Assembly: GCA_012798955.1 (NCBI GenBank)
Contig: JAAZMF010000007.1
Span: 1-38,697 of the forward strand
Source: Bacillota bacterium
GTDB lineage: Bacteria > Bacillota > Limnochordia > DTU087
DNA: 38,697 bases
Direction of reading: 5' to 3'
The notes beneath the pieces are model-generated. The model saw only the letters and a program-made list of their open reading frames with translations. It did no database searches and was not told where the DNA came from. Numbering within the stretch: the first letter of the stretch is position 1; each line of letters opens with the position of its first letter. Shown piece by piece: positions 2,731 to 30,428 of this stretch. The position numbers and the translations under genes were made by a program.

Positions 2731-4467
2731 TTAGGAACTAACCCGCTCATCAAGCAATTGTCGGGCATGTTGGCGACTTACTTCTGAGGCCCCATCTCCC
2801 GCCAACATTCGTGCTAACTCCTGAATCCTAGCCTCAGGCTCAAGAGACTTCACAGTCACATGGGTAGATTGATCACTAACTTCCTTGGTAATGGCCAAAT
2901 GATGGTTAGCCATTCCGGCTACCTGAGGCAAGTGGGTTACACATAACACTTGGCGCTCTGTGGCTAAGGCAGCTAGCTTGGCTCCGACCGCCCGGGCAGT
3001 TTTGCCACCAATACCAGCATCCACCTCATCGAATATGAGTGTAGATACTCCATCTGCAGCAGCGATGGTTGATTTTAATGCCAGCATTAGCCGACTCGCC
3101 TCCCCACCTGATGCAACACGGGCAAGGGGCTTTACATCCTCACCGGGATTAGCTGAAAACAAGAACTCCACATGATCCACACCTCGAGCGGTCACTTGTA
3201 CCATCTTGGTGTCATCGCCTTCCAAGTAGGGCACTCCCATAGTGTCGGCAACTTGAGAGACCTGTATCAAGAAACGGGCATGGGTCAAGTTTAGATCCGG
3301 CAATTCTGCCATGATCCTTTGCTCTAGCTCCTTGGCAACAATTTGACGCATGGCCGACAATTCACTGGCGACCTTACCAAGATCTGTGTTAGCCTTTGCC
3401 AAATCCTCCCGAAGGCGCCCCATGGTAATCTCACTACTTTGCAGTTCTTCCAGCTCACGGGAGACTTTGTCAAAGTAGACAAGAATAGCATCTGTTGTCT
3501 CCCCGTATTTGCGCTCTAGGCGATGGATTAGACTTAGTCTCTCTTCCACCTGATCAAGCCGCCCGGGTTCAGAATCTAATCCCTCGGCATATTCCCGTAA
3601 CTGCCATACAGCCTCTTGGGCATTGGCCGTGGCCGCTCCTACTAACTGAAGTATGTCCTCTAGCCGTTGGTCATGTTTTACTAGCGGTTCTAGTAACTGA
3701 CTAGCTTCACCTAGGCCATCGAGCACACCCTTGGCTTCTACCTCTTGCCCGTAAAGCATTTGGTAAGCTAAGGTGACCCCCTCCCGCAGCTTCTCACCGT
3801 GACGGAGCAATTCCCGTTCTTGCTTTAGCCCAATCTCTTCTCCGGGGGTCAGATGCGCGGCGGCGATCTCATCTACCTGAAACTGCAGTAAATCTATTTG
3901 CCGTAATCGGTCTTGCTCACTCAAAGTCAATCGTTCAAGATCTCGCTCCAGTGCCCTCACTTGCCCATAGGCTTCCTCCACTTGGGCTCGCATCACAGAT
4001 AGTTTGGGGCCACCCATGGCATCCACCATTTCCAGATACTGATGGGGGTCAAAGACCGCTTGATGTTCTTGTTGCCCATGGATTTCCACCAAAAAACTAC
4101 CGATTTCCCGCAAGGCACCCACTGTGGCTAGTCGGCCATTTACCCAGCACTTATTGCGACCTGAACGATGTATCTCCCGGGCCAATATCAGTTCTCCATG
4201 CCCATCATGGGAGAAACCCAATTCCGGTAGTAACTCAAACAGGTTTTTATCCTGGGAGATATCGAAGGTAGCCGCAATCCACGCGGCATCAGCGCCAGTT
4301 CGAATCATCTCAGTGTATGCCCTGCTCCCTGTAAGCATACTAATGGCATCTAGCACAATAGATTTGCCCGCCCCGGTCTCCCCGGTAAGCACAGTCATGC
4401 CCTGCCCAAATTCAAGTTCTAGAGATGTGATCAGCGCGAAATTTTCGATCTGCAGCTGACGCAGCAA
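2731..4467 (-). CDS. recN: DNA repair ATPase RecN
   Basis: RecN is an SMC-like ATPase acting early in double-strand break repair. The Walker A motif GETGAGKS is at residues 29-36. A long coiled-coil region occupies about 150-400, and the C-terminal ABC signature VASGGEASRLMLALK and Walker B LIFDEVDAGIGG follow. The length of 578 residues is normal to slightly long. The start is a TTG preceded by a run of seven G five bases upstream; no better start was seen. It follows argR by 66 bp, the conserved argR-recN order of Bacillota, and is the last gene before a terminator. The family call is secure. Confidence 0.97.
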   Translation of the reverse strand: MLRQLQIENFALITSLELEFGQGMTVLTGETGAGKSIVLDAISMLTGSRAYTEMIRTGADAAWIAATFDISQDKNLFELLPELGFSHDGHGELILAREIHRSGRNKCWVNGRLATVGALREIGSFLVEIHGQQEHQAVFDPHQYLEMVDAMGGPKLSVMRAQVEEAYGQVRALERDLERLTLSEQDRLRQIDLLQFQVDEIAAAHLTPGEEIGLKQERELLRHGEKLREGVTLAYQMLYGQEVEAKGVLDGLGEASQLLEPLVKHDQRLEDILQLVGAATANAQEAVWQLREYAEGLDSEPGRLDQVEERLSLIHRLERKYGETTDAILVYFDKVSRELEELQSSEITMGRLREDLAKANTDLGKVASELSAMRQIVAKELEQRIMAELPDLNLTHARFLIQVSQVADTMGVPYLEGDDTKMVQVTARGVDHVEFLFSANPGEDVKPLARVASGGEASRLMLALKSTIAAADGVSTLIFDEVDAGIGGKTARAVGAKLAALATERQVLCVTHLPQVAGMANHHLAITKEVSDQSTHVTVKSLEPEARIQELARMLAGDGASEVSRQHARQLLDERVSS

Positions 4468-4533
4468 ATCTTACCCCCCCTGTGGAATAATAGGCCTACA
4501 GATGAGCCATTACTAAGAGCACTCTTGAGCAAC

Positions 4534-5013
4534 TCATGAACCATTCTGACGTAGTTTCCTGAATTCCTCCAAAATCGCACCCACCGTTTCCGAGGGTGCT
4601 GCGTTCTTCTCATCTCTGACAATTACCAAGATCGTGTCATCACCGGCAACAGTAGCCAAGATATCAGTCCACTGCAAATCATCAATGGCAGCCGCAACTG
4701 CGTTGGCAGTGCCCGAGAGCGTTTTCAAGATAATCATGTTTTGGCTGTAATCGATCTCCATCACATATTCTTGGAAACTGCGGCGGACCCTCCTGAGAAC
4801 GTCTCCCACCGCCGGTTCAAAGGGTATACCATAGCGGTAATGCCCCTCACCAGTGGGGACCTTCACCAATCTCAATTCCTTTACATCCCGGGATACAGTC
4901 GCCTGCGTAACCACAATGCCTCGCTGGCTCAACATCTCGGCCAATTCCTCTTGGGTTTCAATCTCGTGTTCACGAATAATCTGAAGGATCATTGCCTGCC
5001 GTTTGGTTTTCAT
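4534..5013 (-). CDS. argR: Arginine repressor ArgR/AhrC
   Basis: This is the hexameric arginine-responsive regulator of arginine biosynthesis and catabolism. The N-terminal winged helix (about 1-70) contains the DNA-contacting QATVSRDVKEL. The C-terminal oligomerisation and arginine-binding domain (about 80-150) has GTANAVAAAIDD and the signature VAGDDTILVIVR. The length of 159 residues is standard for the family (about 150). It lies between nadK and recN, the common Bacillota order. The ribosome binding site ahead of the ATG is weak. No clear ARG box was seen in the 112 bp upstream, so autoregulation cannot be judged from the sequence. Confidence 0.96.
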   Translation of the reverse strand: MKTKRQAMILQIIREHEIETQEELAEMLSQRGIVVTQATVSRDVKELRLVKVPTGEGHYRYGIPFEPAVGDVLRRVRRSFQEYVMEIDYSQNMIILKTLSGTANAVAAAIDDLQWTDILATVAGDDTILVIVRDEKNAAPSETVGAILEEFRKLRQNGS

Positions 5014-5125
5014 GAAGCACTAGCCACGCACACTCGCCCATGGCAAGGGTTGTGGCTCACACCCCCCATTCTATCAAGTCTTGCCGATAGCCACCATGTA
5101 TGCTAGGTAGAGTTCTTCGTCCCAG

Positions 5126-6010
5126 TTAGACTTCAGGCTGTGGGGGGTGCAGTGCTGGGTAGTTCAGACGATTCCGTAGCACTTCGTAAAAGCTACGCCC
5201 TCCCAGCTTAATAAATCGAGCATTGAGCTTAGCCCTACGCACCACTACAGATTCCATTGGTGAAAGCTCCACCCCGGCCTGTCCATCGGCTGTAAGCAGA
5301 ACATTGGTTTCTCGATCATTTATCAATCTAATGCGCAATTCATCATCTGGTAGCGCCAAAATCGAACGGGTGGCGAGGCTGTGAGGACAGATAGGTGTAA
5401 TTAGAATCGTCTCCAGACGGGGATGGACAATTGGTCCACCAGCGGAAAGGGAATAGGCGGTAGAACCAGTGGGAGTAGATATGATCAACCCGTCGGCCAA
5501 AAACTCACCGGCTGACACTCCCTCCACTTCAATGGACACATGAATCATCCGGGCAAAAGCCGCCCGGGTGACTACTACGTCATTAACAGCTAGAAACTGT
5601 TCACGCCGTGTATCGCCTTCCACCGTTGCCTCCAAAAGCATGCGCTCTTCGATTGTGTAAGTGCCGGCAAGCAGCTTGCTTAAGGCCACTGTCAAGTCGC
5701 TAGGCTCCACCTCGGTGAGAAATCCCAGGTACCCCAGGTTAATACCAAGCAAAGGTACACCATAGGGGGCCAAAAGCCCCGCCCCGTGCAAAAGCGCTCC
5801 ATCCCCGCCTAACACAACGGCTGCATCTAGAGCCGGCGGAGGTTCGCTGGCAATCACCATGTGGGCATTCCGAGCCCAACCGAGCTGAAGAGCCACATCT
5901 GGAGTCACCCAGATATTTACTCCGAAACCCTCAAGATATGTCCTGGTAGCACGGGCAAGTTCTATGGCTTTAGGTTTCCCAAGATGAGGTAAGATACCGA
6001 TCCGTTTCAC
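5126..6010 (-). CDS. nadK: NAD kinase
   Basis: The enzyme phosphorylates NAD to NADP in the cytoplasm. The GGDG nucleotide-binding motif is at about 68-71, followed by GINLGYLGFLTE, the NDVVVTR motif and the second family signature DGLIISTPTGSTAYSLSAGG. I chose the GTG at 6010 (protein beginning MKRIGILPHLGKP, 294 residues) because GGAGG lies eight bases upstream and this matches the usual N-terminus. An in-frame GTG at 6025 lies inside the ribosome binding site. The gene sits between tlyA and argR, part of the conserved dxs-tlyA-nadK-argR-recN run. No oddities were seen. Confidence 0.96.
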   Translation of the reverse strand: MKRIGILPHLGKPKAIELARATRTYLEGFGVNIWVTPDVALQLGWARNAHMVIASEPPPALDAAVVLGGDGALLHGAGLLAPYGVPLLGINLGYLGFLTEVEPSDLTVALSKLLAGTYTIEERMLLEATVEGDTRREQFLAVNDVVVTRAAFARMIHVSIEVEGVSAGEFLADGLIISTPTGSTAYSLSAGGPIVHPRLETILITPICPHSLATRSILALPDDELRIRLINDRETNVLLTADGQAGVELSPMESVVVRRAKLNARFIKLGGRSFYEVLRNRLNYPALHPPQPEV

Positions 6011-6067
6011 ATTTAGCGCCTCCACCGATCATGCATTCTCCTCTACTGGGGAAATTCCTGCCACCAT

Positions 6068-6880
6068 CTATAGACCAGTTCCAAGCTCTAAGTGCGCTTC
6101 GTTAACTATGTCCCGGCTTAACTTGGCGTAGTCATCTATATGGGGGGCTACTCCCTTTTGCCAATATGCCAAAAATTCCAAATTACCCTCTGGCCCTGCA
6201 ATAGGGGAAAAGGTTAGCCCCAAGAGACCTAGATTAATATCCGCTGCCTCCCTAAGTACTCGGGTAACCACTTCTTGATGTACATCGGGGTCCCTTACCA
6301 CACCTTTTTTGCCTATTTGATCCCGCCTAGCCTCAAATTGTGGCTTAATCAAAGCAATGATCTCACCATCTGGAACGAGTAGCGCCGAGATACCATGGAG
6401 GATCTTAATCAAAGAGATAAACGCTACGTCAACTGTGGCCATATCCACGGGCCCAGGCAGATCATGGGGAAGCACATTCCTGATATTGGTCCGCTCCATA
6501 ACTAATACCCGAGGGTCCTGCCGCAAACGCCAGTCCAATTGACCATAGCCTACATCTATAGCGATAACCCTAGTCACACCATTCTGAAGCAAGCAATCAG
6601 TAAAGCCCCCGGTGGATGCCCCCACATCCACAGCAGATTTCCCTTGGACTACTACCGAGAAAACCTCCAAGGCCTTTGCTAGTTTCAGTCCACCTCGACT
6701 CACGTAGGGGATGGGGTTACCCCTCACTTCAATTTGAGCATCCCTTAAAACAGCAGTACCAGGTTTATCCACCCGATGACCGTCAACGTAAACTATACCT
6801 GCCATGATGAGGCCTTGGGCCCTAGTCCGACTTTCCGCTAACCCTTCGTTAACAAGTAATACATCCAATCGGGTTTTCAT
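6068..6880 (-). CDS. tlyA: TlyA-family rRNA 2'-O-methyltransferase
   Basis: An N-terminal S4 RNA-binding domain (about 1-62, starting MKTRLDVLLVNEGLAESR) is followed by an FtsJ-like methyltransferase domain with the SAM-binding motif DVGASTGGFTDCLL at about 85-98. TlyA proteins methylate ribose 2'-OH groups in 16S and/or 23S rRNA; some annotate them as hemolysin A. The length of 270 residues is standard. The start ATG overlaps the dxs stop (ATGA), indicating translational coupling. The substrate specificity (23S only or both subunits) cannot be read from the sequence. Confidence 0.95.
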   Translation of the reverse strand: MKTRLDVLLVNEGLAESRTRAQGLIMAGIVYVDGHRVDKPGTAVLRDAQIEVRGNPIPYVSRGGLKLAKALEVFSVVVQGKSAVDVGASTGGFTDCLLQNGVTRVIAIDVGYGQLDWRLRQDPRVLVMERTNIRNVLPHDLPGPVDMATVDVAFISLIKILHGISALLVPDGEIIALIKPQFEARRDQIGKKGVVRDPDVHQEVVTRVLREAADINLGLLGLTFSPIAGPEGNLEFLAYWQKGVAPHIDDYAKLSRDIVNEAHLELGTGL

Positions 6881-8775
6881 GAGACTATGGCTTTCTCATC
6901 CAGGCGTGCAAAAGCCCCGATTTGTTCAACGAGATGGTCCACATCTAGTCCTAACGCCTCCAAAAGTATCCCATTTTCCCCATGCTCTACGAAATCGTCG
7001 CCTATGCCAAAGCGCTTGAATTTCACCTTGCCTAACATACTTTCTGCCTCCAACAACTCTAACACAGCGGACCCGAATCCCCCGGCAAGCACATTTTCTT
7101 CTAGTGTGATTACCAAATCAGTACCATGGGCCGCCTCCAATATGGCTGTCTTGTCTAGCGGTTTTACCCAACGGGCATTAATCACACCCACGCTGAGGTC
7201 TTGGTTTGTCAACCTTAGCGCTACTTCAAGAGCCGTTGCAACCATGGAGCCAATAGCTATAATAGTTAAATCCCTTCCCTGGGACATGACTTCGGCTTTA
7301 CCGTATTCAACCTCAGGGCTTTCTCCTACGCCCAACTTTTTTAGAGCACTATCGTGCACTTCACCTCTGGGATATCGCAAAGCGGCGCACCCATCCAGTT
7401 GAAGTGCAAGCTCTAGCATTTCAGCAAGCTCCTTGGAATCTTTGGGAGCCATGATGGGAAGGTTTGGGATCATACGCAGATAACTTAGATCAAATACACC
7501 GTGATGGGTTGGTCCATCCTCCCCCACCAGACCCGCTCGATCGATGGCTAACACCACTGGCAAGTTAGGCAAGCATACATCATGAACAACCTGATCAAAG
7601 GCCCGCTGCAGAAATGTTGAGTAGATAGCTACAACTGGCTTTAGACCACCTGCGGCTAAGCCACCTGCTAAGGTCACGGCATGTTGCTCAGCGATACCAA
7701 CATCGAAAAATCGGTTGGGGAATGTCTCCTTAAATCGAGTTAAGCCAGTACCATCGGGCATAGCCGCAGTAATGGCCACGATTTCTTCATCTTCCCCAGC
7801 AAGCTTGACCAGCGTATCTCCAAATACTCGACTATAGGAAGAAACAGCACCATGATTACCATTGGTAGCTATGGCCGGAGCTGTACCATGGTAAAACACT
7901 GGATTTTTCTCCGAAGGCCCATGGCCCTTTCCCTTCTGAGTAATCACGTGGATTAAAACCGGACCTCTTCTGCGCAGGGCCTCCCGCAATGCCTTCTGCA
8001 ATATGGCCACATCATGGCCATCTACAGGACCGATATAAGTAAAGCCTAACTCCTCAAAGAGCATACCCGGGACAACCAACTGTTTCACTAAGCGCTTGGC
8101 ACGATCAGTTGCCCTAAGCATGGAGTCACCAATGGCGGGTATGCGTCCCAAGATCTGCTCAATCTCTTCCTTGGTGCGATTCAGCGTAGGATCCATACGG
8201 AGTCTAGTCAGATATTCAGAGAGGGCTCCCACGTTGGGAGCAATGGACATCTCGTTATCGTTAAGCACTACTGTCAGTCTTGTGCCCATATGACCAGCGT
8301 GGTTAAGAGCTTCAAAGGCCATACCAGCAGTCAAGGCACCATCTCCCACAACAGCTACAACGTTGTGATCCTCCCGGCGATAGTCCCTAGCTAGCGCATA
8401 TCCCAAGGCGGCCGAGATTGCCGTACTACTATGACCCACTGTAAAAGCATCATAGATGCTCTCATGCCGTGCAGGGAAACCACTAATTCCCTTATACTGG
8501 CGCAAAGTTTGGAAGCGATCCCTACGACCTGTAAGCAATTTGTGGGCATAGGCTTGGTGTCCCACATCCCAGACGAGCTTGTCCGCAGGTGTGTTAAGAA
8601 TGGAATGCAGGGCCACTGTAAGCTCGATGACGCCAAGGCTAGACGCCAAATGGCCCCCCGTCTCCTCTACAACACCGATTATTCGCTCCCTCAGCTCCTC
8701 ACACAAAAGAGTCAGTTCTGGACGGGTCATACGATGTAACTGTTTCGGATGCTCGATTATCTCCAGTAATGCCAC
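6877..8775 (-). CDS. dxs: 1-deoxy-D-xylulose-5-phosphate synthase
   Basis: This is the first enzyme of the methylerythritol phosphate route to isoprenoids; it condenses pyruvate and glyceraldehyde 3-phosphate using thiamine diphosphate. The thiamine diphosphate motif starts at GDGALTAGMA (about 144) and runs to NDNEMSIAPN (about 172-181). The catalytic Glu is in IAEQHAVT (about 363). A transketolase C-terminal domain follows. The length of 632 residues is typical. The start is a GTG with AAGGAG nine bases upstream. It directly follows oapA (16 bp) and overlaps tlyA by four bases. With ispA just upstream of the OLE region, the locus links isoprenoid synthesis to the ribonucleoprotein. Confidence 0.98.
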   Translation of the reverse strand: MALLEIIEHPKQLHRMTRPELTLLCEELRERIIGVVEETGGHLASSLGVIELTVALHSILNTPADKLVWDVGHQAYAHKLLTGRRDRFQTLRQYKGISGFPARHESIYDAFTVGHSSTAISAALGYALARDYRREDHNVVAVVGDGALTAGMAFEALNHAGHMGTRLTVVLNDNEMSIAPNVGALSEYLTRLRMDPTLNRTKEEIEQILGRIPAIGDSMLRATDRAKRLVKQLVVPGMLFEELGFTYIGPVDGHDVAILQKALREALRRRGPVLIHVITQKGKGHGPSEKNPVFYHGTAPAIATNGNHGAVSSYSRVFGDTLVKLAGEDEEIVAITAAMPDGTGLTRFKETFPNRFFDVGIAEQHAVTLAGGLAAGGLKPVVAIYSTFLQRAFDQVVHDVCLPNLPVVLAIDRAGLVGEDGPTHHGVFDLSYLRMIPNLPIMAPKDSKELAEMLELALQLDGCAALRYPRGEVHDSALKKLGVGESPEVEYGKAEVMSQGRDLTIIAIGSMVATALEVALRLTNQDLSVGVINARWVKPLDKTAILEAAHGTDLVITLEENVLAGGFGSAVLELLEAESMLGKVKFKRFGIGDDFVEHGENGILLEALGLDVDHLVEQIGAFARLDEKAIVS

Positions 8776-8791
8776 TTCATGAGTCTCCTTG

Positions 8792-9406
8792 TCATACCTT
8801 TTTCGGGCGGATTTGCCTTCGATTCGTGTCTCGCTTTCTGCCAGAGCCCACTGTGTTCCCTAAACTGGTAATTCTTAGGCCAGTAATTGTCTCCCAAGCA
8901 TATATAACTTTCCCCGCCCCATGCACGATATCACCGGCTTTGGAAATTGCGATATCTTTCCCGAAAGCCTTGCCACCCACAGTCACAGCCGCAACACCTG
9001 ACACAAGTAGTGTTGCCCATACGCCTTGGCTCCATAGACCAACCTCTCGAAAAGCAGCAAAGGCAATACTAGTCCCCACAGCTCCACTTAGGGTACCGGC
9101 TATATCACCGATCATATCATTGCACAACGTAGCTACAGAGGCGGCATTACGTACGATCCACATGGCCTCCTTGGCCCCTAGCACCTTATCTGAAGCCATG
9201 GCATGGAAGGGCACCTCGTCGGCGGCAGTTGCCGCCACACCGATTATGTCAAACAAAATACCTATCAAGACAATAATCACTAGTAAGCCAAGGGCTGGAA
9301 GCAATGGTAGCAAGTTCAATAGACTACTGCTACCGGAGCTAGACACTAGCGAGATCAAAAACGTCCCCAGGACAACTCCCAGAAAACGTCGGACATTCGA
9401 TTTCAA
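8792..9406 (-). CDS. oapA: Probable OLE-associated membrane protein OapA
   Basis: A 204-residue integral membrane protein with about four hydrophobic segments (near 8-25, 32-58, 103-119 and 128-146) and a strongly basic C-terminal tail (about 189-203, GRKRDTNRRQ followed by IRPKK). The segment LFDIIGVAATAADEVPFHAMAS resembles the DUF21 membrane domain of CNNM/CorC-type transport proteins. A DMIGD motif gives a D97-xxx-D101 pair; from memory, a conserved DxxxD pair is functionally important in OapA of Halalkalibacterium halodurans. The start is TTG with GGGGTGGT six bases upstream. It lies directly after the structured RNA at 9430-10085 and directly before dxs, which is the known ole-oapA-dxs order. 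OapA binds OLE RNA and holds it at the membrane. The name rests on context, size and topology; an unrelated DUF21-like protein is the alternative. Confidence 0.8.
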   Translation of the reverse strand: MKSNVRRFLGVVLGTFLISLVSSSGSSSLLNLLPLLPALGLLVIIVLIGILFDIIGVAATAADEVPFHAMASDKVLGAKEAMWIVRNAASVATLCNDMIGDIAGTLSGAVGTSIAFAAFREVGLWSQGVWATLLVSGVAAVTVGGKAFGKDIAISKAGDIVHGAGKVIYAWETITGLRITSLGNTVGSGRKRDTNRRQIRPKKV

Positions 9407-9429
9407 AAATTACCACCCCATGAAGGATC

Positions 9430-9452
9430 AAAAGGCTTGGAGGATCCAAGCC
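9430..9452 (-). terminator. Terminator hairpin at the 3' end of the OLE RNA
   Basis: On the minus strand GGCTTGG, a five-base loop ATCCT and CCAAGCC are followed by TTTT. The seven-pair perfect stem lies 23 bp before the oapA start. The short T-run suggests partial termination, which would give much free RNA with some read-through into oapA and dxs. It may also be the last helix of the RNA itself. Confidence 0.7.
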
Positions 9453-10085
9453 GTGATGGCAAAACCATATTTACAGTAGGTGGCCGCGGGATGAGTAAAG
9501 ATTGTGGCTTTAGGTCCAGCAGGTTTTCCCAACGGTCCTCCAGACCGTTACCAGTCTGGCGATTTCTCCTTTCCGACCGCTTCACCCTGTCACCAAAGGT
9601 GAGGCTGGATTACCACTTAGTCCACACTGTAATCCCCACTCCGCGTCCATAAGGAACAGCCTAGGAGATTTCCTCTACGATCTGCCCCATTTTCTAGCCT
9701 CTTTTGCAGGACCATTTTCAGGTAGCATCGGGTCCATCCTCTTGGCCTTCGAATCAGGACTTGAACCTACCATCCCCATGTGCCCCACGCAAGGCAGGCT
9801 ACACTGCACCCAACACAAAATGCTAAAATGTATCACGTGCAGGTTCACCCCAAGCCGTAGTTTCGCCTAAGTAGGTATTCTCCACGGAATTGGGTCTCCA
9901 CGGTAGCGGGGTCAACGCCTACATGCCTTTGCAGATCGCCCCACTACCTTAACCCCCAGCAGCAACCCCCAACTGGGCGTCAGCGGCCACCACCAAGGAC
10001 TTCATCGATGTGCCATTGACGGATTTTTAGGCCCGTCTTGGAAAATGGGCGTATCGACTAGGATACTGCGCCACCTACTACGATT
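9430..10085 (-). ncRNA. ole: Probable OLE RNA (ornate large extremophilic RNA)
   Basis: This roughly 655-nt stretch has no convincing coding frame but dense base-pairing on the minus strand. A ten-pair helix joins 9948-9939 to 9911-9902 with one G-U pair. A seven-pair helix joins 9635-9629 to 9613-9607, and next to it a six-pair helix joins 9701-9696 to 9606-9601. A nested pair of helices is formed by 9580-9575 with 9537-9532 and 9559-9554 with 9545-9540. A five-pair hairpin joins 10066-10062 to 10055-10051. It has its own strong promoter and a terminator hairpin at its 3' end. The context (ispA upstream; an OapA-like gene, then dxs-tlyA-nadK-argR-recN downstream) is that of OLE RNA, as is the size of about 600-650 nt. 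OLE RNA forms a membrane-bound ribonucleoprotein linked to magnesium, ethanol and cold responses in H. halodurans. The 5' end is inferred from the promoter. Confidence 0.82.
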
Positions 10086-10091
10086 ATCATG

Positions 10092-10120
10092 ATTATAGCA
10101 TAGACGCACAAATGTTACAA
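10092..10120 (-). promoter_or_regulatory. Sigma-A promoter for OLE RNA-oapA-dxs
   Basis: On the minus strand TTGTAA (10120-10115) and a perfect TATAAT (10097-10092) are separated by exactly 17 bases. A TG one base ahead of the -10 box makes it an extended -10. Transcription should start near 10085, right at the beginning of the structured region. It lies 52 bp past the malic enzyme stop and is the best promoter in the window, suggesting strong independent expression of the RNA. Confidence 0.85.
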
Positions 10121-10172: not shown

Positions 10173-11396
10173 CTATCTGCTGACGGCCCCCTGAATCTTG
10201 GCCTGCAGTTCATCTTCAGACAAAGTAAGACCAGCTACCTTAGTCTTCATGGCTTCCATACCCACTGCCAATGCCACAGCAGGTACAACTCTTGGATCAA
10301 AGGGCTTTGGTATCACGTAATCTGGCGCCAACTCATCAGCTTCCACAAGATCGGCAATAGCCTTGGCAGCAGCGATCTTCATGGCATCATTGATGGTTCT
10401 AGCCCGTACATCTAGCGCTCCCCTAAATATACCAGGAAAACCGAGTACATTATTGACTTGATTGGGAAAATCTGACCTGCCCGAAGCCACCACCTTGGCT
10501 CCAGCCGCCATTGCCCTATCCACAGAGATCTCTGGCTCTGGATTGGCCAATGCAAAAACTATAGGAGCCGGACCCATCGACTGGACCATGGCCTCGGTGA
10601 CAATATTGGCCACCGAAAGACCCACAAACACGTCTTGTCCCTGCATTAGTTCTACCAAATCCCCCTGTATGCCTCGGGGGTTCGTCAGTTGGGCGATCTC
10701 ACTTTGCACTGGGTCCATCCCAGCCATACCAGGGTATAGTGCTCCGTTTTTACCACAGGCAGTTATGTTCCGCACCCCGTAAAGATGCAGAAGACGAATT
10801 ACGCTGGAACCAGCGGCACCTACACCATTAACTAACACCCGCAAGTCCTTTAGATCCTTGCCCAATACCCGGCTGGCGTTGATCAGCCCAGCCAATGTCA
10901 CCACGGCAGTGCCATGCTGGTCATCATGGAAGATAAGCATATCGGATTCTCTTTGTAGCCGCTCTTCGATTTCAAAACACCGCGGGGCGCTAATATCCTC
11001 CAAGTTAATACCAGCAAAGGACGGGGCCAGCTGTTTACAGGTCTCTACAATTGTGTCCACATCTTGCGAGCCGAGGCAAATGGGAACTGCATCTACACCG
11101 GCAAAGAGCTTGAACAAGACTGCTTTACCTTCCATAACTGGCAATGCACCATCAGGCCCGATATTGCCTAAACCCAGCACCGCAGAGCCATCAGACACAA
11201 CTGCGATCATGTTGCCCTTACCAGTATACTCATAAACTAACTCCTTGTCCGCCGCTATCCGCCGACAAGGCTCCGCCACACCTGGTGAATAGGCTAGACT
11301 CAAGTCTGCTTCATTGTCTACTTTTGCTCGGCTAACAACTTCAATCTTGCCTTGAAGCCGTCTATGAAACTCCAACGATGCTGCATAGACATCCAT
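10173..11396 (-). CDS. NAD(P)-dependent malic enzyme (short form)
   Basis: The enzyme oxidatively decarboxylates malate to pyruvate. The 407-residue short bacterial form is seen, with catalytic Tyr36 (LAYSPGVAEPC) and Lys91 (MEGKAVLFK). The metal ligands are Glu133-Asp134 (NLEDI) and Asp158-Asp159 (FHDDQHGT), and the dinucleotide fold has VNGVGAAGSS at about 190-200. Cofactor preference cannot be decided from the sequence. The start ATG has an excellent GGGGGAGGGG ribosome binding site. It lies between ispA and the OLE promoter; I do not recall it as a regular member of the ole neighbourhood. Pyruvate is a substrate of Dxs encoded downstream, but a functional link is only inferred. Confidence 0.95.
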   Translation of the reverse strand: MDVYAASLEFHRRLQGKIEVVSRAKVDNEADLSLAYSPGVAEPCRRIAADKELVYEYTGKGNMIAVVSDGSAVLGLGNIGPDGALPVMEGKAVLFKLFAGVDAVPICLGSQDVDTIVETCKQLAPSFAGINLEDISAPRCFEIEERLQRESDMLIFHDDQHGTAVVTLAGLINASRVLGKDLKDLRVLVNGVGAAGSSVIRLLHLYGVRNITACGKNGALYPGMAGMDPVQSEIAQLTNPRGIQGDLVELMQGQDVFVGLSVANIVTEAMVQSMGPAPIVFALANPEPEISVDRAMAAGAKVVASGRSDFPNQVNNVLGFPGIFRGALDVRARTINDAMKIAAAKAIADLVEADELAPDYVIPKPFDPRVVPAVALAVGMEAMKTKVAGLTLSEDELQAKIQGAVSR

Positions 11397-11438: not shown

Positions 11439-12341
11439 TTAGTGATCTCGTCCAACGACATATTCTGCCAATTCGCAAAGGACGCGGTTAGTCGGTGCAA
11501 AAGCATCTATGGCAGCCTTAGCCTTCTCCATGGTCTCTTCAGCGAGTTCTCGGGCGCGCTCTAGTCCGTATAAGGATACGTAAGTTGCCTTATCAGACCC
11601 GGAATCACTACCCACCCGTTTGCCTAACTTACTCTCATCTCCGACTACATCGAGAATATCATCTGTGATTTGAAAGCAAAGACCAAAACACTCAGCATAC
11701 TCAGTCACCGCCTCAATCTCGTGGGAACTAGCCCCCGCCAGGAGAGCACCACCCCTAAGCACAGCTTTAAACAAAGCACCGGTTTTGTGGGTATGGATAT
11801 ATTCTAAGATTTCATGGTCGATTGTCTGTCCCTCTGATGCTAGATCAACGGCCTGACCGCCGATTACCCCTCGACTACCAGCGGCCATGGCGAGCTCTTT
11901 GGTCAGGGCAATTACCGTCGCAGCCGGAATCCCCATGTCCGCTAACTGCATCATCACCGCAAAGGTTTCGGTAAGTAAAGCATCACCTGCCAAGACTGCC
12001 AACCCTTCACCAAATACTTTATGGTTTGATGGCTTTCCCCGCCGAAAATCATCATCATCCATACAAGGCAAATCGTCATGGATCAACGTATAGGCGTGTA
12101 GCATCTCGGCAGCAGCAGCAAATCGATAGGTAGCACTCTCTATGAGGGGAAACTTATCTTGGGCCACCATCTCGGCAGCGGCTATGGCCAATAGAGCCCG
12201 TAGCCGCTTCCCTGCACCGATAGTGCTATACCGCATAGCTTCATGGAGTCTCTCGGGATAGGTTGTCTCCGGCGGCAAACAGCCCTTAAGTTCATTTTCA
12301 ATGCTAGGTATATACTTGTCCATGAAACGCTCCAAAACCAT
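11439..12341 (-). CDS. ispA: Farnesyl diphosphate synthase (geranyltranstransferase)
   Basis: A 300-residue all-helical prenyltransferase that adds isopentenyl diphosphate to DMAPP/GPP. The first aspartate-rich motif is IHDDLPCMDDDDFRRGKP (about 88-105), with the two-residue insertion (DDxxxxD) typical of bacterial farnesyl diphosphate synthases. The second is QITDDILD. The GAGKRLRALL motif lies at about 42-51. I chose the ATG at 12341 (MVLERFMDKY) because GGAG lies nine bases upstream, just before the xseB stop; the longer frame would extend into xseB. The order xseA-xseB-ispA is the usual Bacillota arrangement. With dxs beyond the OLE RNA, it provides a partial isoprenoid gene set. Confidence 0.96.
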   Translation of the reverse strand: MVLERFMDKYIPSIENELKGCLPPETTYPERLHEAMRYSTIGAGKRLRALLAIAAAEMVAQDKFPLIESATYRFAAAAEMLHAYTLIHDDLPCMDDDDFRRGKPSNHKVFGEGLAVLAGDALLTETFAVMMQLADMGIPAATVIALTKELAMAAGSRGVIGGQAVDLASEGQTIDHEILEYIHTHKTGALFKAVLRGGALLAGASSHEIEAVTEYAECFGLCFQITDDILDVVGDESKLGKRVGSDSGSDKATYVSLYGLERARELAEETMEKAKAAIDAFAPTNRVLCELAEYVVGRDH

Positions 12342-12345
12342 GGGT

Positions 12346-12606
12346 CTAAACTCCTTTTTGTTCAAAATGATCAAAGGCGATGACCTCCGGGTCTTCACCC
12401 TCCTTTTTGGTAACCAACATAGCTATACGGGTTTCAGCCGCATCTAGCTGTCCGGAACATCGCCGGACGATCTGCACCCCTTCTTCAAAAAGCGCCAGTG
12501 ACTCGGCCAGGGGGACATCCCCCTTTTCCAGTTGCCCAATAATCTCCTCCAAGCGTGCAATGTTCTGCTCGAAGGTCAAATCCTGATCAGCTCCATGCTG
12601 CCCCAT
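12346..12606 (-). CDS. xseB: Exodeoxyribonuclease VII small subunit
   Basis: An 86-residue protein with the family's helical hairpin: LTFEQNIARLEEIIGQLEKGDVPLAESLALFEEG, in which LE..V..LE.G..PL..SL..FE is diagnostic, at about 10-43. It partners XseA in single-strand DNA degradation and mismatch or damage processing. It follows xseA by 32 bp and abuts ispA. The acidic C-terminal tail (EGEDPEVIAFDHFEQKGV) is unremarkable. The assignment is secure from motif, size and neighbour. Confidence 0.95.
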   Translation of the reverse strand: MGQHGADQDLTFEQNIARLEEIIGQLEKGDVPLAESLALFEEGVQIVRRCSGQLDAAETRIAMLVTKKEGEDPEVIAFDHFEQKGV

Positions 12607-12638
12607 AGCCCCACCCCTATCTAGGCTGAATGCGATAT

Positions 12639-13925
12639 CTAGTCAATAGTAGTCAGTCTGTCTAGTCTACTTGGTTTTGTAGCCCCAATTCTGGCCACTA
12701 TGGTCCCGTCTTGAAGCATTACATCCACATCTTCACCAAGTTGCACCTGCTCGATGGACACGATTGGTTGGTGGGTCTCACTATGGGATACAATCCCATA
12801 ACCCCTTCCTACCACTGCCAAAGGGCTAAGACCATCTAGCCGTTGCATGATCATGGCAAGATCTTGCCTTGCCCCAGTTAACTGCCTATCCATGGCACTC
12901 ACTAGCCTATTACTTAACTCATCTAACCGCTGTTGTCTTTCCCGCAAGACACCAACGGGGTTGTAGCTATTTAGCACTCGCTCCAGGTTAGCCACTTTCT
13001 CTTTACCATCCGTGTAGTAGCGGAACCAAGCCCCCTCTAGGCGAATCTCCATATCCTTAAGCTCTTGCTGCAAAGCCGCAGCCAAAGGCACAGCCAACTC
13101 GGCAGCGGCTGAAGGGGTCGGTGCCCTGAGATCTGCAACAAAGTCACAAATCGTCACATCGGTTTCATGACCTACCGCAGAAATCACTGGGACAGGAGAC
13201 CCGAAAACAGCCCGGGCCACCGCTTCTTCATTAAAAGGCCATAGATCCTCTAAAGAGCCTCCACCTCGCCCCACGATAATCACATCACAATCGCCCCACT
13301 TGACTAAGGCATCTATGCTGGCGACAATACTTGCCGCGGCACTCCGTCCCTGAACTAAGGCTGGGGCTATGAGGATCTCGATGCTTGGCATTCTCCTGGT
13401 GAGGATGCTAATCATATCCTGAATGGCTGCCCCTGTGGGCGAGGTAACTATCCCAATTCGCCTGGGTAAGAAGGGAAGCGGTTTCTTGTTTGTTGCATCA
13501 AATAAGCCTTCCTCCGTCAGCTTACCTTTGAGCTGTTCAAAGGCCACATGCAAGTCCCCCACACCCCGGGGCTCAAGGTATTCCACATATAACTGATAAA
13601 TGCCACCGGCTTCATAAATTGTAATAGCACCGGTGGCATATACTTCTAAACCGTCGGTAGGAGTAAAACGAAGGGTACTATTGCGACCTCTAAACATCAC
13701 ACATCGAATACTACTTTGTGCATCCTTTAGCACAAAATACATGTGACCAGAGGTATGGTGTTTGAAATTGGAGATCTCCCCGCATATAGTAACATACTGA
13801 AAAAGCGGCTCCCCTTCCAGGTACCGTTTAAGGATGCGATTGATCTCTGTAACCGTGTAAATTGGCGGACCCTCGACCTTAGGCATCTCTAGACCTAACG
13901 GAATCTGCTGCATATGGTTCATCAC
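12639..13925 (-). CDS. xseA: Exodeoxyribonuclease VII large subunit
   Basis: The N-terminal OB-fold (about 22-115, YTVTEINRILKRYLE to the GEISNFKHHTSGHMYFVLKD block) precedes the catalytic region with RRIGIVTSPTGAAIQDMI, VIIVGRGGGSLEDLWPFNEE and VISAVGHETDVTICDFVADLRAPTPSAAAE. All are standard XseA signatures. A coiled-coil stretch follows. The length of 428 residues is normal. The exact start is uncertain: GTG 13925, ATG 13922 and ATG 13913 are all in frame, and AGGTGA suits the last. It begins the xseA-xseB-ispA run, downstream of two small reading frames. Confidence 0.97.
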   Translation of the reverse strand: MMNHMQQIPLGLEMPKVEGPPIYTVTEINRILKRYLEGEPLFQYVTICGEISNFKHHTSGHMYFVLKDAQSSIRCVMFRGRNSTLRFTPTDGLEVYATGAITIYEAGGIYQLYVEYLEPRGVGDLHVAFEQLKGKLTEEGLFDATNKKPLPFLPRRIGIVTSPTGAAIQDMISILTRRMPSIEILIAPALVQGRSAAASIVASIDALVKWGDCDVIIVGRGGGSLEDLWPFNEEAVARAVFGSPVPVISAVGHETDVTICDFVADLRAPTPSAAAELAVPLAAALQQELKDMEIRLEGAWFRYYTDGKEKVANLERVLNSYNPVGVLRERQQRLDELSNRLVSAMDRQLTGARQDLAMIMQRLDGLSPLAVVGRGYGIVSHSETHQPIVSIEQVQLGEDVDVMLQDGTIVARIGATKPSRLDRLTTID

Positions 13926-14314: not shown

Positions 14315-15265
14315 CTAAAATAGTCTGCTTCTCCATATCCCGTAAGCGGCTATCCCCACAGCATTATCACCGCTAAGTGCAGGGGACGCGAAGGTAACTA
14401 CCACGTCTTCTACTTGAAGGGCCCTTATTAGAAAATCTCGAATATATCCGTTAGCCGCCACGCCCCCAACTACCAATACCCGATCCAGTCCTTTACTGCT
14501 TGTCCCATAGGCAATCAAAGCTGCTAAGCTTTCAGCTAGGCATCTCTCTATCCCCTGGGCCAAGGCCCTGGGATCAGCCCCCGCTTCTAGAGCCCTGGTG
14601 GCAGCAGCCTCAGGACCGGAAAGGTTTAGATCAAAACCCTTAATGGAAATAGGCAACTTGGTTGGGGGTATGCCTGCTTGGCGTCCTTCTCTAGCTAACT
14701 CTTCTAGCACTGGGCCACAAGGAAATGCAAGTCCCATCTTCACACCGAGCCTATCGATCAACTGGCCCGCGTTGATATCAAGGCTGCCCCCAATTTGATC
14801 GATTGTCATATCATCGGCGGTCTCATCTATGGTAACGGAAAGCAGATCCGTTGTCCCTCCCGAGATATGCAAAGCCAAAAACTCTCCAGCCCAAGCTAAA
14901 TTCCGTCCATAGAGACCTGCCCAAATATGCCCGGCTTGGTGGCTAGTAAAGTAGCAGGGCACGTCCCAAGCTAAGGCTAGGCTCTGGGCCAAAGCTTCTC
15001 CTGCCTTAAAAACTGGCATATAGGAATTCTCCACAGAGCGGGGCGCATTGCTTACTGCCACCGCGGCTATCTGCTTTAGGGGTAGGATTTCCCCAAGCAG
15101 CTTAGGGAGATTCCCCACATGCTGGAAAACCGCCTCAGCTTGCCGGAGCCCCCTTTTCCCCAGTGGCACCTCTAGTAATAATCGGCGGTCAACTACTAGA
15201 CCTTTCTCACCTACCACAGCCACAGAAGTGGTGTAACAGCTAGTATCTATACCAAGTGCTTTGAC
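14315..15265 (-). CDS. TsaD/Kae1-like protein (M22 family paralogue) with apparent GTC start
   Basis: This ASKHA-fold protein resembles TsaD, the catalytic subunit of tRNA t6A synthesis, but in Clostridia a second, divergent copy often sits beside nusB and xseA, and this looks like that paralogue. Counting from the GTC at 15265, the N-terminal strand motif ALGIDTSCYTTSVAVV (3-18) is intact. The metal ligands appear as His109 and His113 (SHQAGHIWAG) and Asp300 (SGDNAVGIAAYG), and HISGGTTDLL is a phosphate loop. The Glu of the usual HxEGH is Ala. No ATG, GTG or TTG occurs in frame between the upstream stop at 15301 and the GTG at 15223, which would cut off the first strand. GGGGGA lies seven bases before the GTC. 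The substrate is unknown. Confidence 0.85.
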   Translation of the reverse strand, partial: VKALGIDTSCYTTSVAVVGEKGLVVDRRLLLEVPLGKRGLRQAEAVFQHVGNLPKLLGEILPLKQIAAVAVSNAPRSVENSYMPVFKAGEALAQSLALAWDVPCYFTSHQAGHIWAGLYGRNLAWAGEFLALHISGGTTDLLSVTIDETADDMTIDQIGGSLDINAGQLIDRLGVKMGLAFPCGPVLEELAREGRQAGIPPTKLPISIKGFDLNLSGPEAAATRALEAGADPRALAQGIERCLAESLAALIAYGTSSKGLDRVLVVGGVAANGYIRDFLIRALQVEDVVVTFASPALSGDNAVGIAAYGIWRSRLF

Positions 15266-27025: not shown

Positions 27026-27463
27026 TTACCCTTGACCAATAATCTCTACTAATCCTTGCAGTCCCAAGAGATAGCTATTAGGGCCAAAGCCCGCAACTTG
27101 CCCCCTGCACACGGCGCCGGTCACCGACTCATGGCGAAATGGTTCCCTTTGATAGATGTTGGACATATGTACCTCCACCACCGGCAACTCCACCGCGGCT
27201 ATGGCATCCCGAATAGCATAGGCATAATGGGTAAAAGCCGCGGGATTAATCAAGATGCCATCATAGCCAGATCGGCATGCATGGATAGCGTCAATCAACT
27301 CACCTTCGTGATTGCTTTGGAAAAAGTCCACCTGACACCCCAATTCACGGGCTAAGTTGGTAAGCTGCTGCTCAATTTCTGCTAGTGTCATTTCCCCATA
27401 GATATCCCTTTCCCGCTTACCGAGCAGATTGAGGTTAGGTCCATTAATCACTTTTATCCGCAT
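27026..27463 (-). CDS. aroQ: 3-dehydroquinate dehydratase, type II
   Basis: The third step of the shikimate pathway. The 145-residue type II enzyme starts MRIKVINGPNLNLLGKRERDIYGE, with catalytic Tyr22 and Arg/Glu nearby, then FFQSNHEGELID, NPAAFTHYAYAIRDA and VEVHMSNIYQREPFR. All are signatures. It overlaps the end of aroKB by ten bases, indicating coupling, and lies ahead of the peptidase and efp. In many Bacillota aroQ sits just before pepP-efp, as here. Confidence 0.96.
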   Translation of the reverse strand: MRIKVINGPNLNLLGKRERDIYGEMTLAEIEQQLTNLARELGCQVDFFQSNHEGELIDAIHACRSGYDGILINPAAFTHYAYAIRDAIAAVELPVVEVHMSNIYQREPFRHESVTGAVCRGQVAGFGPNSYLLGLQGLVEIIGQG

Positions 27464-29178
27464 GGTAGCCCCTCCTGCTGTATCTTCAGGGCCTCCAATA
27501 GCTCCTGGGGCATGATTACCTCTGCCTCCTTGGCGTTACCTAGTCCATGGAGCAATACAAAGCGCAGCTGCCCTTGCCGGGCCTTCTTGTCACTATTTGA
27601 AGCCTGCACGATGCCTTCCAGAGACAACTCCCCTAGCTGAATGGGCAATCGCCAAGCCCTTAACAAACTGACTACTCGCCTACACTCTTCCTGGGACAAA
27701 TACCCCTTGCGACTAGATAAAATGGCGGCGGTAACCATACCCATTGCGATTGCTTCTCCGTGGGTATATCGGCCATAGCCTGCCACCTGTTCTACTCCAT
27801 GTCCCACAGTATGACCAAAATTCAAGATCTCCCTGTAACCCGTCTCCTTAGTGTCCGCGGCTACTACCTGGGCCTTAATTTCACAGGAACGCTTCACCCA
27901 TTGGGCAATCACCGATTTGGACACACTTTGCTGGGCATGCCTCTCTAAATCTTTCATAAGGTCTGTATCACAGATGAAGGCGCATTTGATCACTTCCGCC
28001 ATACCTGTAAGGAACTGACGGTGGGGCAAAGCTTCTAGGGTATCTAGATCAGCCACAACCATTTCCGGCTGATAAAAGGCACCGATCAGGTTTTTGCCAC
28101 TTGGATGGTTAACTCCTACTTTCCCACCAACAGAGCTATCCACTTGTGCCAAAAGCGTAGTTGGCACCTGGATAAATCTAATCCCTCGCATATAGGTGGC
28201 AGCGGCAAAGCCGGCTATATCTCCAATAACCCCTCCGCCCAAAGCAATTATCCCTGACGATCGGTCCAGGCCCATATCCAATGCCGCCCCATAGATACGC
28301 TCCACCGTGGCAAGATACTTGAACTCCTCACCATCGGGGATGAGCACCGCCTCATAACAAAGACCGGCATCTTCCAAGGATTCCTTTACCCGATCCCCAT
28401 ATAGGGCAAATACTGTAGGATTCGACACGATCAGAGCCTTCTGAAGTTTGGCCTCATGGCGACAGCGCTGCCCAAGATTATCTAAAAGCCCATGGCCAAT
28501 ATGAATTGGATAGGTTCCACCTTCTGCTTTGACTAAGAGGTGGTGGGCTTGCCCCGTCTTCTCGCTCTTTGCTCCATTATCAATGGTCTTTTGCCACCAA
28601 TCGCCAATTTTTTCAGCCACTGCCTTGGGTGACAAGGACCCATCTACTACCAGATCACATTTTGCATAGGCCCATCGGCGTTCATCCTCTAGCCTTTGCC
28701 AATTGGCCATGTACCTACTTCTTGACCCACTCTCTAACCCCTCGGTCGCCCTATCAGGTGCCCCCTTAATCTCGGCGTCGAACTGACCACCCGATCCATG
28801 GCTATCCTGTACTAAAAGTGGCCTCGTCCCGTCAAAGTCAAGACGCTTAGCCGCTGTGTCACTATCTATAGCTAGCCAGATCACTAGATGCTGCTCCATC
28901 AATTCACGGTTAGATTCCCTAAGAATGGCTCCTCCGCCGGTAGAGATTACCCGACTAGGTAGAGCTAGCGCCTCCCGAAGAGCAAGACTCTCTAACTCCC
29001 GAAAGTGGTCTTCTCCATAGCGACTAAAGATCTCCTGCACCGAGGCATTCGCCTCTTCTTCAATTACCTCATCAAGATCGAGGTACTTCATGCCCAATTG
29101 AGCGGCCAAGAGTTTGCCTACTGTGCTTTTTCCAGCGCCCATCATACCCGTCAAAATCAAATTCGGTTCATTGCCCAT
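27454..29178 (-). CDS. aroKB: Fused shikimate kinase-3-dehydroquinate synthase
   Basis: Two shikimate enzymes in one chain. Residues about 1-200 are shikimate kinase, with Walker A GMMGAGKS (11-18), DLDEVIEE, FRELESLALREAL and STGGGAIL. Residues about 214-574 are dehydroquinate synthase, with IALGGGVIGDIAGFAAATYMRG, PTTLLAQVDSSVGGKVGVNH, and metal ligands in GMAEVIKCAFI, FGHTVGHGVE and YTHGEAIAMGM. The kinase has an insert of about 30 residues after TRPLL (about 124-157, Gly/Ser/Asp-rich) in the LID region. I placed the start at ATG 29178, with AGGAG eight bases upstream. It lies 11 bp after aroC. Similar fusions are known, but in the reverse or this order depending on the lineage. Both active sites look complete. 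Confidence 0.95.
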   Translation of the reverse strand: MGNEPNLILTGMMGAGKSTVGKLLAAQLGMKYLDLDEVIEEEANASVQEIFSRYGEDHFRELESLALREALALPSRVISTGGGAILRESNRELMEQHLVIWLAIDSDTAAKRLDFDGTRPLLVQDSHGSGGQFDAEIKGAPDRATEGLESGSRSRYMANWQRLEDERRWAYAKCDLVVDGSLSPKAVAEKIGDWWQKTIDNGAKSEKTGQAHHLLVKAEGGTYPIHIGHGLLDNLGQRCRHEAKLQKALIVSNPTVFALYGDRVKESLEDAGLCYEAVLIPDGEEFKYLATVERIYGAALDMGLDRSSGIIALGGGVIGDIAGFAAATYMRGIRFIQVPTTLLAQVDSSVGGKVGVNHPSGKNLIGAFYQPEMVVADLDTLEALPHRQFLTGMAEVIKCAFICDTDLMKDLERHAQQSVSKSVIAQWVKRSCEIKAQVVAADTKETGYREILNFGHTVGHGVEQVAGYGRYTHGEAIAMGMVTAAILSSRKGYLSQEECRRVVSLLRAWRLPIQLGELSLEGIVQASNSDKKARQGQLRFVLLHGLGNAKEAEVIMPQELLEALKIQQEGLPCG

Positions 29179-29189
29179 CTCTACCACTC

Positions 29190-30428
29190 CTAACCCTTGA
29201 TTTGCCCGGGACAAAGGGAGAGTAGATACTCCTTAAAGCTAGCTTCTATCTCTTTAACCGAATCTCCCCCAAACTTCTCCAAGAAAGCCTCGGCAAGTAC
29301 CCAAGATACCATGGCTTCCCCTACCACAGCCGCGGCCGGTACCGCACATACATCGGATCGTTCAATACCCGCAGCAATAGGCTCTAGGCTATCTAGATCA
29401 ACGGAGGAAAGTGGTTTATAAAGAGTAGGAATAGGTTTCATAGTCGCCCGTACAACTATTGGAGAACCATTGGTCATGCCACCCTCGATACCTCCAGCCC
29501 GATTGGTAGATCGATAAAAGCCACCGGCTGTCGGCCAATGCCTGCCTTGCCAATAGAAAGCCTCTCTTTTGCAGTCAGCCCCCGTTCCATGGTAATGGAT
29601 TTCATCATGGACCTGGGAGCCCGGGCGTAAGCCACTTTCTCGACCCATACCGATCTCCACAGCTTTGATGGCAGGAATGGACATTAAGGCCTGGCCTAGA
29701 CGCCCATCTAGCCTTCGATCCCAATGCACATGACTGCCTAAACCGGCGGGCACATGCTCTGCGATAATTTCGAAAATGCCCCCCAGAGAGTCTCCCGTGG
29801 CCCTAGCATGATCTATGGCAGCCATCATCTGTTCTGTTGCCCTGTCATCAGCGCAGCGTAAGGGGGATGTCTCCGCCTTTTCCCTAATCCAATCCCCACC
29901 TCGCCCCCCATCAGTAGCCATTACATCCCCGATCTGTACCACATGGGAAGAGACAACCATGCCAAAATGCTCCAACAGCCTGCGGGCCACAGCTCCCACC
30001 GCCACCCGCATGGCAGTCTCTCTCGCACTAGCTCGCTCCAGAATATTTCTGGCGTCCTTGGTTCTATATTTTAGCATCCCGGCTAGATCCCCATGACCAG
30101 GCCGTGGCCTAGTCATAGGTTCACTCTCACTAGCCTTTGTAGGAGGTCCGATAGCCATCGTGTCCTGCCAGTTCTCCCAATCCCGATTAACCACTGCAAG
30201 GCCAATGGGGCCACCGAGGGTCTTTCCCCAGCGCACCCCTGACAGAATCTGCACTGTATCGGTTTCAATCGCCATACGGCCACCCCGGCCATACCCTTTC
30301 TGACGTCGGGCTAGTTGCCGATTGACATCATCTTCCACCAGATCTAGATGGGCTGGCATTCCCTCGATAATGCCCATCAATGTAGGGCCGTGGGATTCAC
30401 CTGCCGTCAAAAACCGCAAAACAGTCAT
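29190..30428 (-). CDS. aroC: Chorismate synthase
   Basis: The last step of the shikimate pathway, an FMN-dependent elimination. Signatures are LRFLTAGESHGPTLMGIIEG (start), RRQKGYGRGGRM, RPGHGDLAGMLKY, ARETAMRVAVGAVA and EGGMTNGSPIVVRATMKPIPTL. I favour the ATG at 30428 with AGTAGG six bases upstream, although a TTG two codons earlier is in frame. The length is slightly above average (412 residues). It follows tldE by a few bases and precedes aroKB. No active-site changes were seen. Confidence 0.96.
   Translation of the reverse strand: MTVLRFLTAGESHGPTLMGIIEGMPAHLDLVEDDVNRQLARRQKGYGRGGRMAIETDTVQILSGVRWGKTLGGPIGLAVVNRDWENWQDTMAIGPPTKASESEPMTRPRPGHGDLAGMLKYRTKDARNILERASARETAMRVAVGAVARRLLEHFGMVVSSHVVQIGDVMATDGGRGGDWIREKAETSPLRCADDRATEQMMAAIDHARATGDSLGGIFEIIAEHVPAGLGSHVHWDRRLDGRLGQALMSIPAIKAVEIGMGRESGLRPGSQVHDEIHYHGTGADCKREAFYWQGRHWPTAGGFYRSTNRAGGIEGGMTNGSPIVVRATMKPIPTLYKPLSSVDLDSLEPIAAGIERSDVCAVPAAAVVGEAMVSWVLAEAFLEKFGGDSVKEIEASFKEYLLSLCPGQIKG

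Follow-up and report, generated by a model that had tools for sequence, protein, structure and literature searches.

Positions 9464-10090 on the minus strand of the window (i.e. the whole stretch of DNA analysed, 38,697 nt) encode a real, ordinary, full-length OLE RNA of 627 nt. OLE RNAs are large, folded bacterial RNAs that assemble into a complex at the membrane and take part in stress responses, and to our knowledge OLE is among the largest bacterial RNAs without a known biochemical activity in any species. An earlier note, made from the letters alone, had claimed an OLE RNA at this position and was correct: the scan of the minus strand with the Rfam covariance model (cmscan), which it had proposed as a check, gave a significant match to RF01071 over the full model (positions 1-616), with a score of 474.1 bits (gathering score 50) and E = 3.2e-136, and OLE was the sole Rfam family to reach its gathering score within the window. 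The identity of the RNA, its conserved structure, its promoter consensus and its partner genes are established here. The RNA lies in a gap of 766 nt between the start of oapA (9406) and a malic-enzyme gene (10173-11396), which contains no credible gene (as had also been noted), the only open reading frames across it being mechanical antisense frames on the plus strand (8769-9479 and 9437-9652). The bounds proposed earlier (9430-10085) hold in part, since 10085 is near the start expected from the promoter, whereas the OLE model ends at 9464 and positions 9430-9463 are occupied by a hairpin and spacer.

The OLE strand is more stable than its dinucleotide shuffles (z = -3.6, i.e. 3.6 sd below), and the conservation of its base pairs across homologous intervals, which the earlier note had named as a further check, is strong for both the Rfam pairs and the helices P1-P3. 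For the former, 19 OLE RNAs of the window's class were aligned with MAFFT, and the Rfam structure, which is independent of this alignment, was transferred to them through the cmscan alignment. In these sequences 89.0% of cells form standard pairs, compared to 40-47% when the partners are slid, and both sides have changed at 86 of the 157 Rfam pairs, with a covariation score of 0.372 (0.08-0.10 with slid partners). A reading of the interval as chance structure is rejected by the full-model match and the covariation.

The first 53 positions of the RF01071 consensus structure are unpaired, and the domain-closing helices P1, P2 and P3, which the literature likewise draws, were added by RNAalifold. 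By themselves these three helices have 92.1% of cells formed and both-sided changes at 21 of 32 pairs in the 19 sequences, values that favour themselves to some extent because the structure was derived from the same alignment; in the window all 32 pairs form. P1 (11 bp, 10080-10070 with 9484-9474) forms completely in the window and shows both-sided changes at 10 of its 11 pairs. The P2 region (5' strand 10058-10069, pairing with 9656-9664), which is the published OapA-contact region (PMC12054373), has nine nearly invariant pairs that are formed in 100% of the 19 sequences. The 5' strand of P3/P3.1 (10041-10056) pairs with 9678-9694; all of its 12 pairs form in the window, 10 of them show both-sided changes, and the 12 bp of this combined stem equal the length discussed for a proposed membrane-crossing stem (PMC12265935). 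The long helices announced in the earlier note are thereby borne out, P1, P5, P6 and P9 all being supported by covariation.

The motifs to which functions have been assigned in other OLE RNAs (dimer contacts and k-turn region; PMC12286853, PMC9723947) were located as well, the L4 A-run, J4a/5, J6/7 and the GGCC of L9.3 all being near-invariant in the 19 sequences. The A-rich loop L4 (CCUAAAAAUC, 10022-10031), published as an A-A dimer bridge, has an A-run that is invariant in the alignment, and J4a/5 (GGCACAUCGAUGAAGU, 9999-10014), the published k-turn and OapC site, is nearly so. The P5 hairpin (9953-9999; 20 pairs, 96% formed) carries the loop ACGCCCAG, which together with the L6 of the window (GGCAUG) corresponds to the published L5-L6 kissing interaction, while the palindrome GGCC of L9.3 (9744-9747), a published kissing loop between monomers, is again invariant. 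Two 3' hairpins are capped by GNRA-type loops (GUGA and GUAA), which, like the full model match, the covarying structure, the dimer loops, the k-turn region and the position directly upstream of oapA, agrees with the full-length class of RF01071. Variants 1 (TANB77) and 2 (RF39) share the conserved core with the window OLE according to the literature; unlike these, the RNA of the window matches the full-length model and keeps the long P9 and P7/P8-region helices, and its genome has OapB and OapC.

The P6 hairpin (9902-9948) is the published bS21 site. In Halalkalibacterium halodurans a CCUCC anti-Shine-Dalgarno mimic (as CCUCCU) has been reported in P6, and conserved G-C pairs matter for bS21 binding. 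Unlike in H. halodurans, the literal CCUCC is absent from P6 of the window and from 18 of the 19 aligned OLE RNAs; with a single occurrence in 19, the mimic was rejected as a conserved P6 feature of this OLE class. The G-C pairs important for bS21 binding are kept in the window, and judged from these pairs a link of bS21 to this OLE RNA is plausible.

In distal P7 and in parts of P9.3 the RNA does not follow the Rfam consensus pairs, as might be seen in a decaying OLE pseudogene. Against this, 141 of the 157 projected Rfam pairs form in the window in addition to the 32 of P1-P3, the invariant motifs are intact, oapA is open and conserved, and an OLE copy from the same genus is 89% identical, so that decay is extremely improbable.

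As for expression, the earlier note had proposed a dedicated promoter, which is real as a consensus match: TTGTAA, a spacer of 17 nt and TGC TATAAT on the minus strand (10092-10120) agree with the consensus at 10 of 12 positions and include a TG before the -10 element. The promoter ends 1 nt before the start of the model, and because the -10 element ends at 10092, the OLE transcript is expected to start near 10085. A perfect TATAAT recurs in 89 of 111 distinct OLE upstream regions, compared to a mean of 6.1 in shuffled ones, and a -10 element with at least 5 of 6 matches in 103 of 111 (shuffled mean 37.5), at a distance from TATAAT to GCAGTAT of mostly 20-26 nt; as the upstream regions are related and shuffling preserved no more than their base content, the TATAAT contrast is indicative. 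It is unlikely, then, that the RNA is solely a processing product of a long polycistronic transcript and that the promoter match is due to chance, even if polycistronic transcription has been published for H. halodurans (PMC12265935) and a promoter scan returned 4 promoter-like sites where 2.7 were expected, since the recurrence of TATAAT (with the reservation just given) speaks against it. The motif and its recurrence make it probable that OLE is driven by a housekeeping-type promoter of its own, with a start near 10085. An own promoter and a polycistronic transcript can both hold.

On the same strand, 58 nt downstream of OLE, lies oapA (8792-9406; 204 aa, TTG start, with GGGGTGG at 9419-9413 upstream). 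Between the two is a hairpin, GGCTTGGA-TCC-TCCAAGCC, followed by TTTT (9452-9434, minus strand), whose stem (GGCTTGG/CCAAGCC) recurs in members of the window's family directly before the ribosome-binding site of oapA. The 3' hairpin with a T-run that had been noted earlier is thus present and family-recurrent, but its T-run is short. This hairpin may separate oapA expression from that of OLE or tune it. Its position before the oapA start, together with the location of OLE immediately ahead of this gene and in the same orientation, could also be taken to mean that the structured region is a 5' leader controlling oapA (a riboswitch or attenuator) instead of a free-standing RNA. This is very improbable, considering that the whole 616-position OLE model is matched and that P1 closes the RNA on itself without involving oapA. 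Moreover, outside the window's family oapA often follows OLE by ~10-30 nt and the hairpin is absent from the OLE-oapA spacers listed for other families, and in the genomes G022 and G013 the gene after OLE is not oapA.

That the neighbouring gene encodes OapA, as the earlier note had supposed, is borne out by homology, its product being 40-66% identical to the proteins encoded just downstream of OLE in relatives. When genome contigs were scanned for OapA homologues and the best 80 named ones were kept, OLE was found upstream in 74; in the other 6 only 81-636 nt separate the match from a contig end, which leaves no room for a whole OLE. The AlphaFold model of OapA is all-helical (pLDDT 75), and its top four PDB hits are CNNM/CorB/CorC Mg2+ transporters (probability 0.99-1.00, E 0.014-0.57), a modest fold match with TM-scores of 0.42-0.48 normalised by query. 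The CNNM-type resemblance of OapA has been published (PMC11332333). While its best solved folds are the membrane domains of CNNM/CorB/CorC proteins, OapA of the window differs from MpfA/CorC transporters in having no CBS or CorC domains and in scoring below the cut-off of the Pfam CNNM model (E 0.006).

The genome also encodes the other reported partners. A homologue of OapB was located via the map-infA neighbourhood as a 99-aa ORF between these genes, with 7k9b ('OLE-associated protein B') as its sole PDB hit (E 8.8e-8); the Pfam KOW model missed it and returned two ribosomal-type loci on C45 only. The OapC/YbxF homologue is an 82-aa ORF between rpoC and rpsL with the YbxF/L7Ae-like structures 3v7e and 4lck as best hits, YlxQ being a separate gene in the same genome, and bS21 is encoded as well. 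No CNNM match, and hence no MpfA-type transporter, was found in the genome, an absence that is uncertain given that the assembly, a MAG, is broken into 236 contigs and has about 5% contamination. The one CorC_HlyC hit (G000) was rejected as MpfA, the only ORF there being a 211-aa protein without a CNNM match. The presence of OapA-C and absence of MpfA fit the pattern reported for OLE-bearing species, in which MpfA is absent or rare, and H. halodurans likewise encodes OapB, OapC and bS21 and lacks MpfA according to the literature.

The gene order is spoIIIAG/AH - accB - accC - asp23 - nusB - tsaD-like - xseA - xseB - ispA - malic enzyme - OLE - oapA - dxs - tlyA - nadK - argR - recN - spoIVB - spo0A, in which the usual upstream neighbours of ole, ispA, xseB and xseA (11439-13925, minus strand), were assigned by Pfam (ispA, xseB) or by translation and synteny (xseA), and the usual downstream neighbours from dxs to recN (2731-8775, minus strand) by Pfam, translation and synteny. 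As in H. halodurans, isoprenoid, DNA-repair and related genes thus cluster around ole and the oapA that follows it. The complete match of the neighbourhood that had been asserted applies to the cluster and to the adjacent oapA, but not to the malic-enzyme gene (minus strand; Pfam malic and Malic_M), which splits ispA from OLE and, like the hairpin between ole and oapA in the window's family, distinguishes the locus from that of H. halodurans. The malic-enzyme gene is present at the locus in G001, G003 and G004, and absent in G006 and in the loci examined outside the window's family. Elsewhere in the window, a TsaD/Kae1-like protein (14315-15223) whose scores fall well short of the TsaD equivalog cut-offs adjoins nusB and is kept in most relatives examined, and a 586-aa fusion of shikimate kinase to 3-dehydroquinate synthase (27454-29214) adjoins chorismate synthase.

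The suggestion of an extremophilic host was not borne out. Among the best 80 named OapA records, the closest belong to MAGs of unclassified Bacillota, several of which have sample names of a biogas type; next come 'Clostridiales bacterium DTU087' and MAGs of Limnochordia whose sample names are of a soda-lake type. From these records we infer a Limnochordia-like host. OLE is present in 54 of 61 relatives and in 100 of 120 genomes around G051 (a genome with two OLE copies), and in none of 14 controls. Five MAG contigs (G008:C162, G009:C144, G019:C48, G037:C11 and G044:C162) begin or terminate within the OLE gene, a pattern that would be expected if assembly tends to break off at so conserved an RNA.

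The OLE of the window is itself not a case of OLE without OapA. Two other loci, which may be more unusual than the window OLE, raise the question of how strictly the two are tied. G051 has two full-length OLE RNAs, one canonical and a second (L043:8354-8992, G051:C52; 472 bits) that lies outside the canonical cluster and has no oapA; it is followed by an LPG_synthase_TM gene and then by an MpfA-type CNNM + CBS-CorC gene split into two frames, and upstream there is an oppositely oriented cation-efflux gene. Comparison of the second copy with the canonical one gives 88.7% identity, 4 compensated pairs, 9 pairs kept on one side and 8 found in one copy only. The contig with the second copy carries further duplicated genes, because of which assembly error or decay is possible. 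In G013 (99% complete) a full-length OLE (L168:3026-3699, G013:C36) lies directly between ispA and dxs, and no OapA was found at the locus or elsewhere in the genome (E <= 0.01), while one MpfA-type gene is present. In G022, OLE (L171:9839-10471) is followed by dxs and oapA is on another contig (L172:245-793), and in G018 OLE is at a contig end with oapA on a different contig (L169 and L170); because oapA can thus be situated away from OLE, that of G013 could sit in missing sequence. It is quite doubtful that the second copy of G051 and the OLE of G013 show that OLE is not strictly tied to OapA in the window's Bacillota class. Should these copies prove active, an MpfA-type transporter may take the place of OapA as the partner of some OLE RNAs.

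Taken as a whole, the window almost certainly holds a functional full-length OLE RNA gene, and the mechanism best supported for it would combine its own promoter, a two-domain fold, a dimer, OapA anchoring, partner binding and a role in stress and Mg2+ homeostasis. Transcribed from a housekeeping-type promoter near 10085, the RNA would fold into the known two-domain OLE structure. The steps beyond the fold draw on work on H. halodurans and on cryo-EM papers: the RNA would dimerise through L4, L5/L6 and L9.3, OapA (the product of the next gene) would hold it at the membrane, and the particle would be completed by OapC, OapB and bS21, bound to the J4a/5 k-turn, the P13 hairpin and P6, respectively. 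By analogy with H. halodurans, transcription, dimerisation, membrane localisation and a stress role are thus expected in the organism of the window, where the particle would help adaptation to stresses such as cold, alcohol, poor carbon sources and an excess of Mg2+. Since the search of the genome gave no MpfA-type CNNM exporter, the particle may serve mainly in Mg2+ and membrane homeostasis.

The OLE of the window joins thousands of copies on record from other genomes; because OLE has already been reported in 2,822 Bacillota genomes (Fernando and Breaker, PMC11332333), it adds little beyond comparative detail; by itself, this copy leaves the activity of OLE unsolved. What it does contribute is comparative data on a full-length OLE RNA with all reported partners from a lineage far from Halalkalibacterium, which support the helices P1-P3, among them the 12-bp P3 for which a membrane-crossing role has been proposed, and suggest that the RNA has its own promoter.
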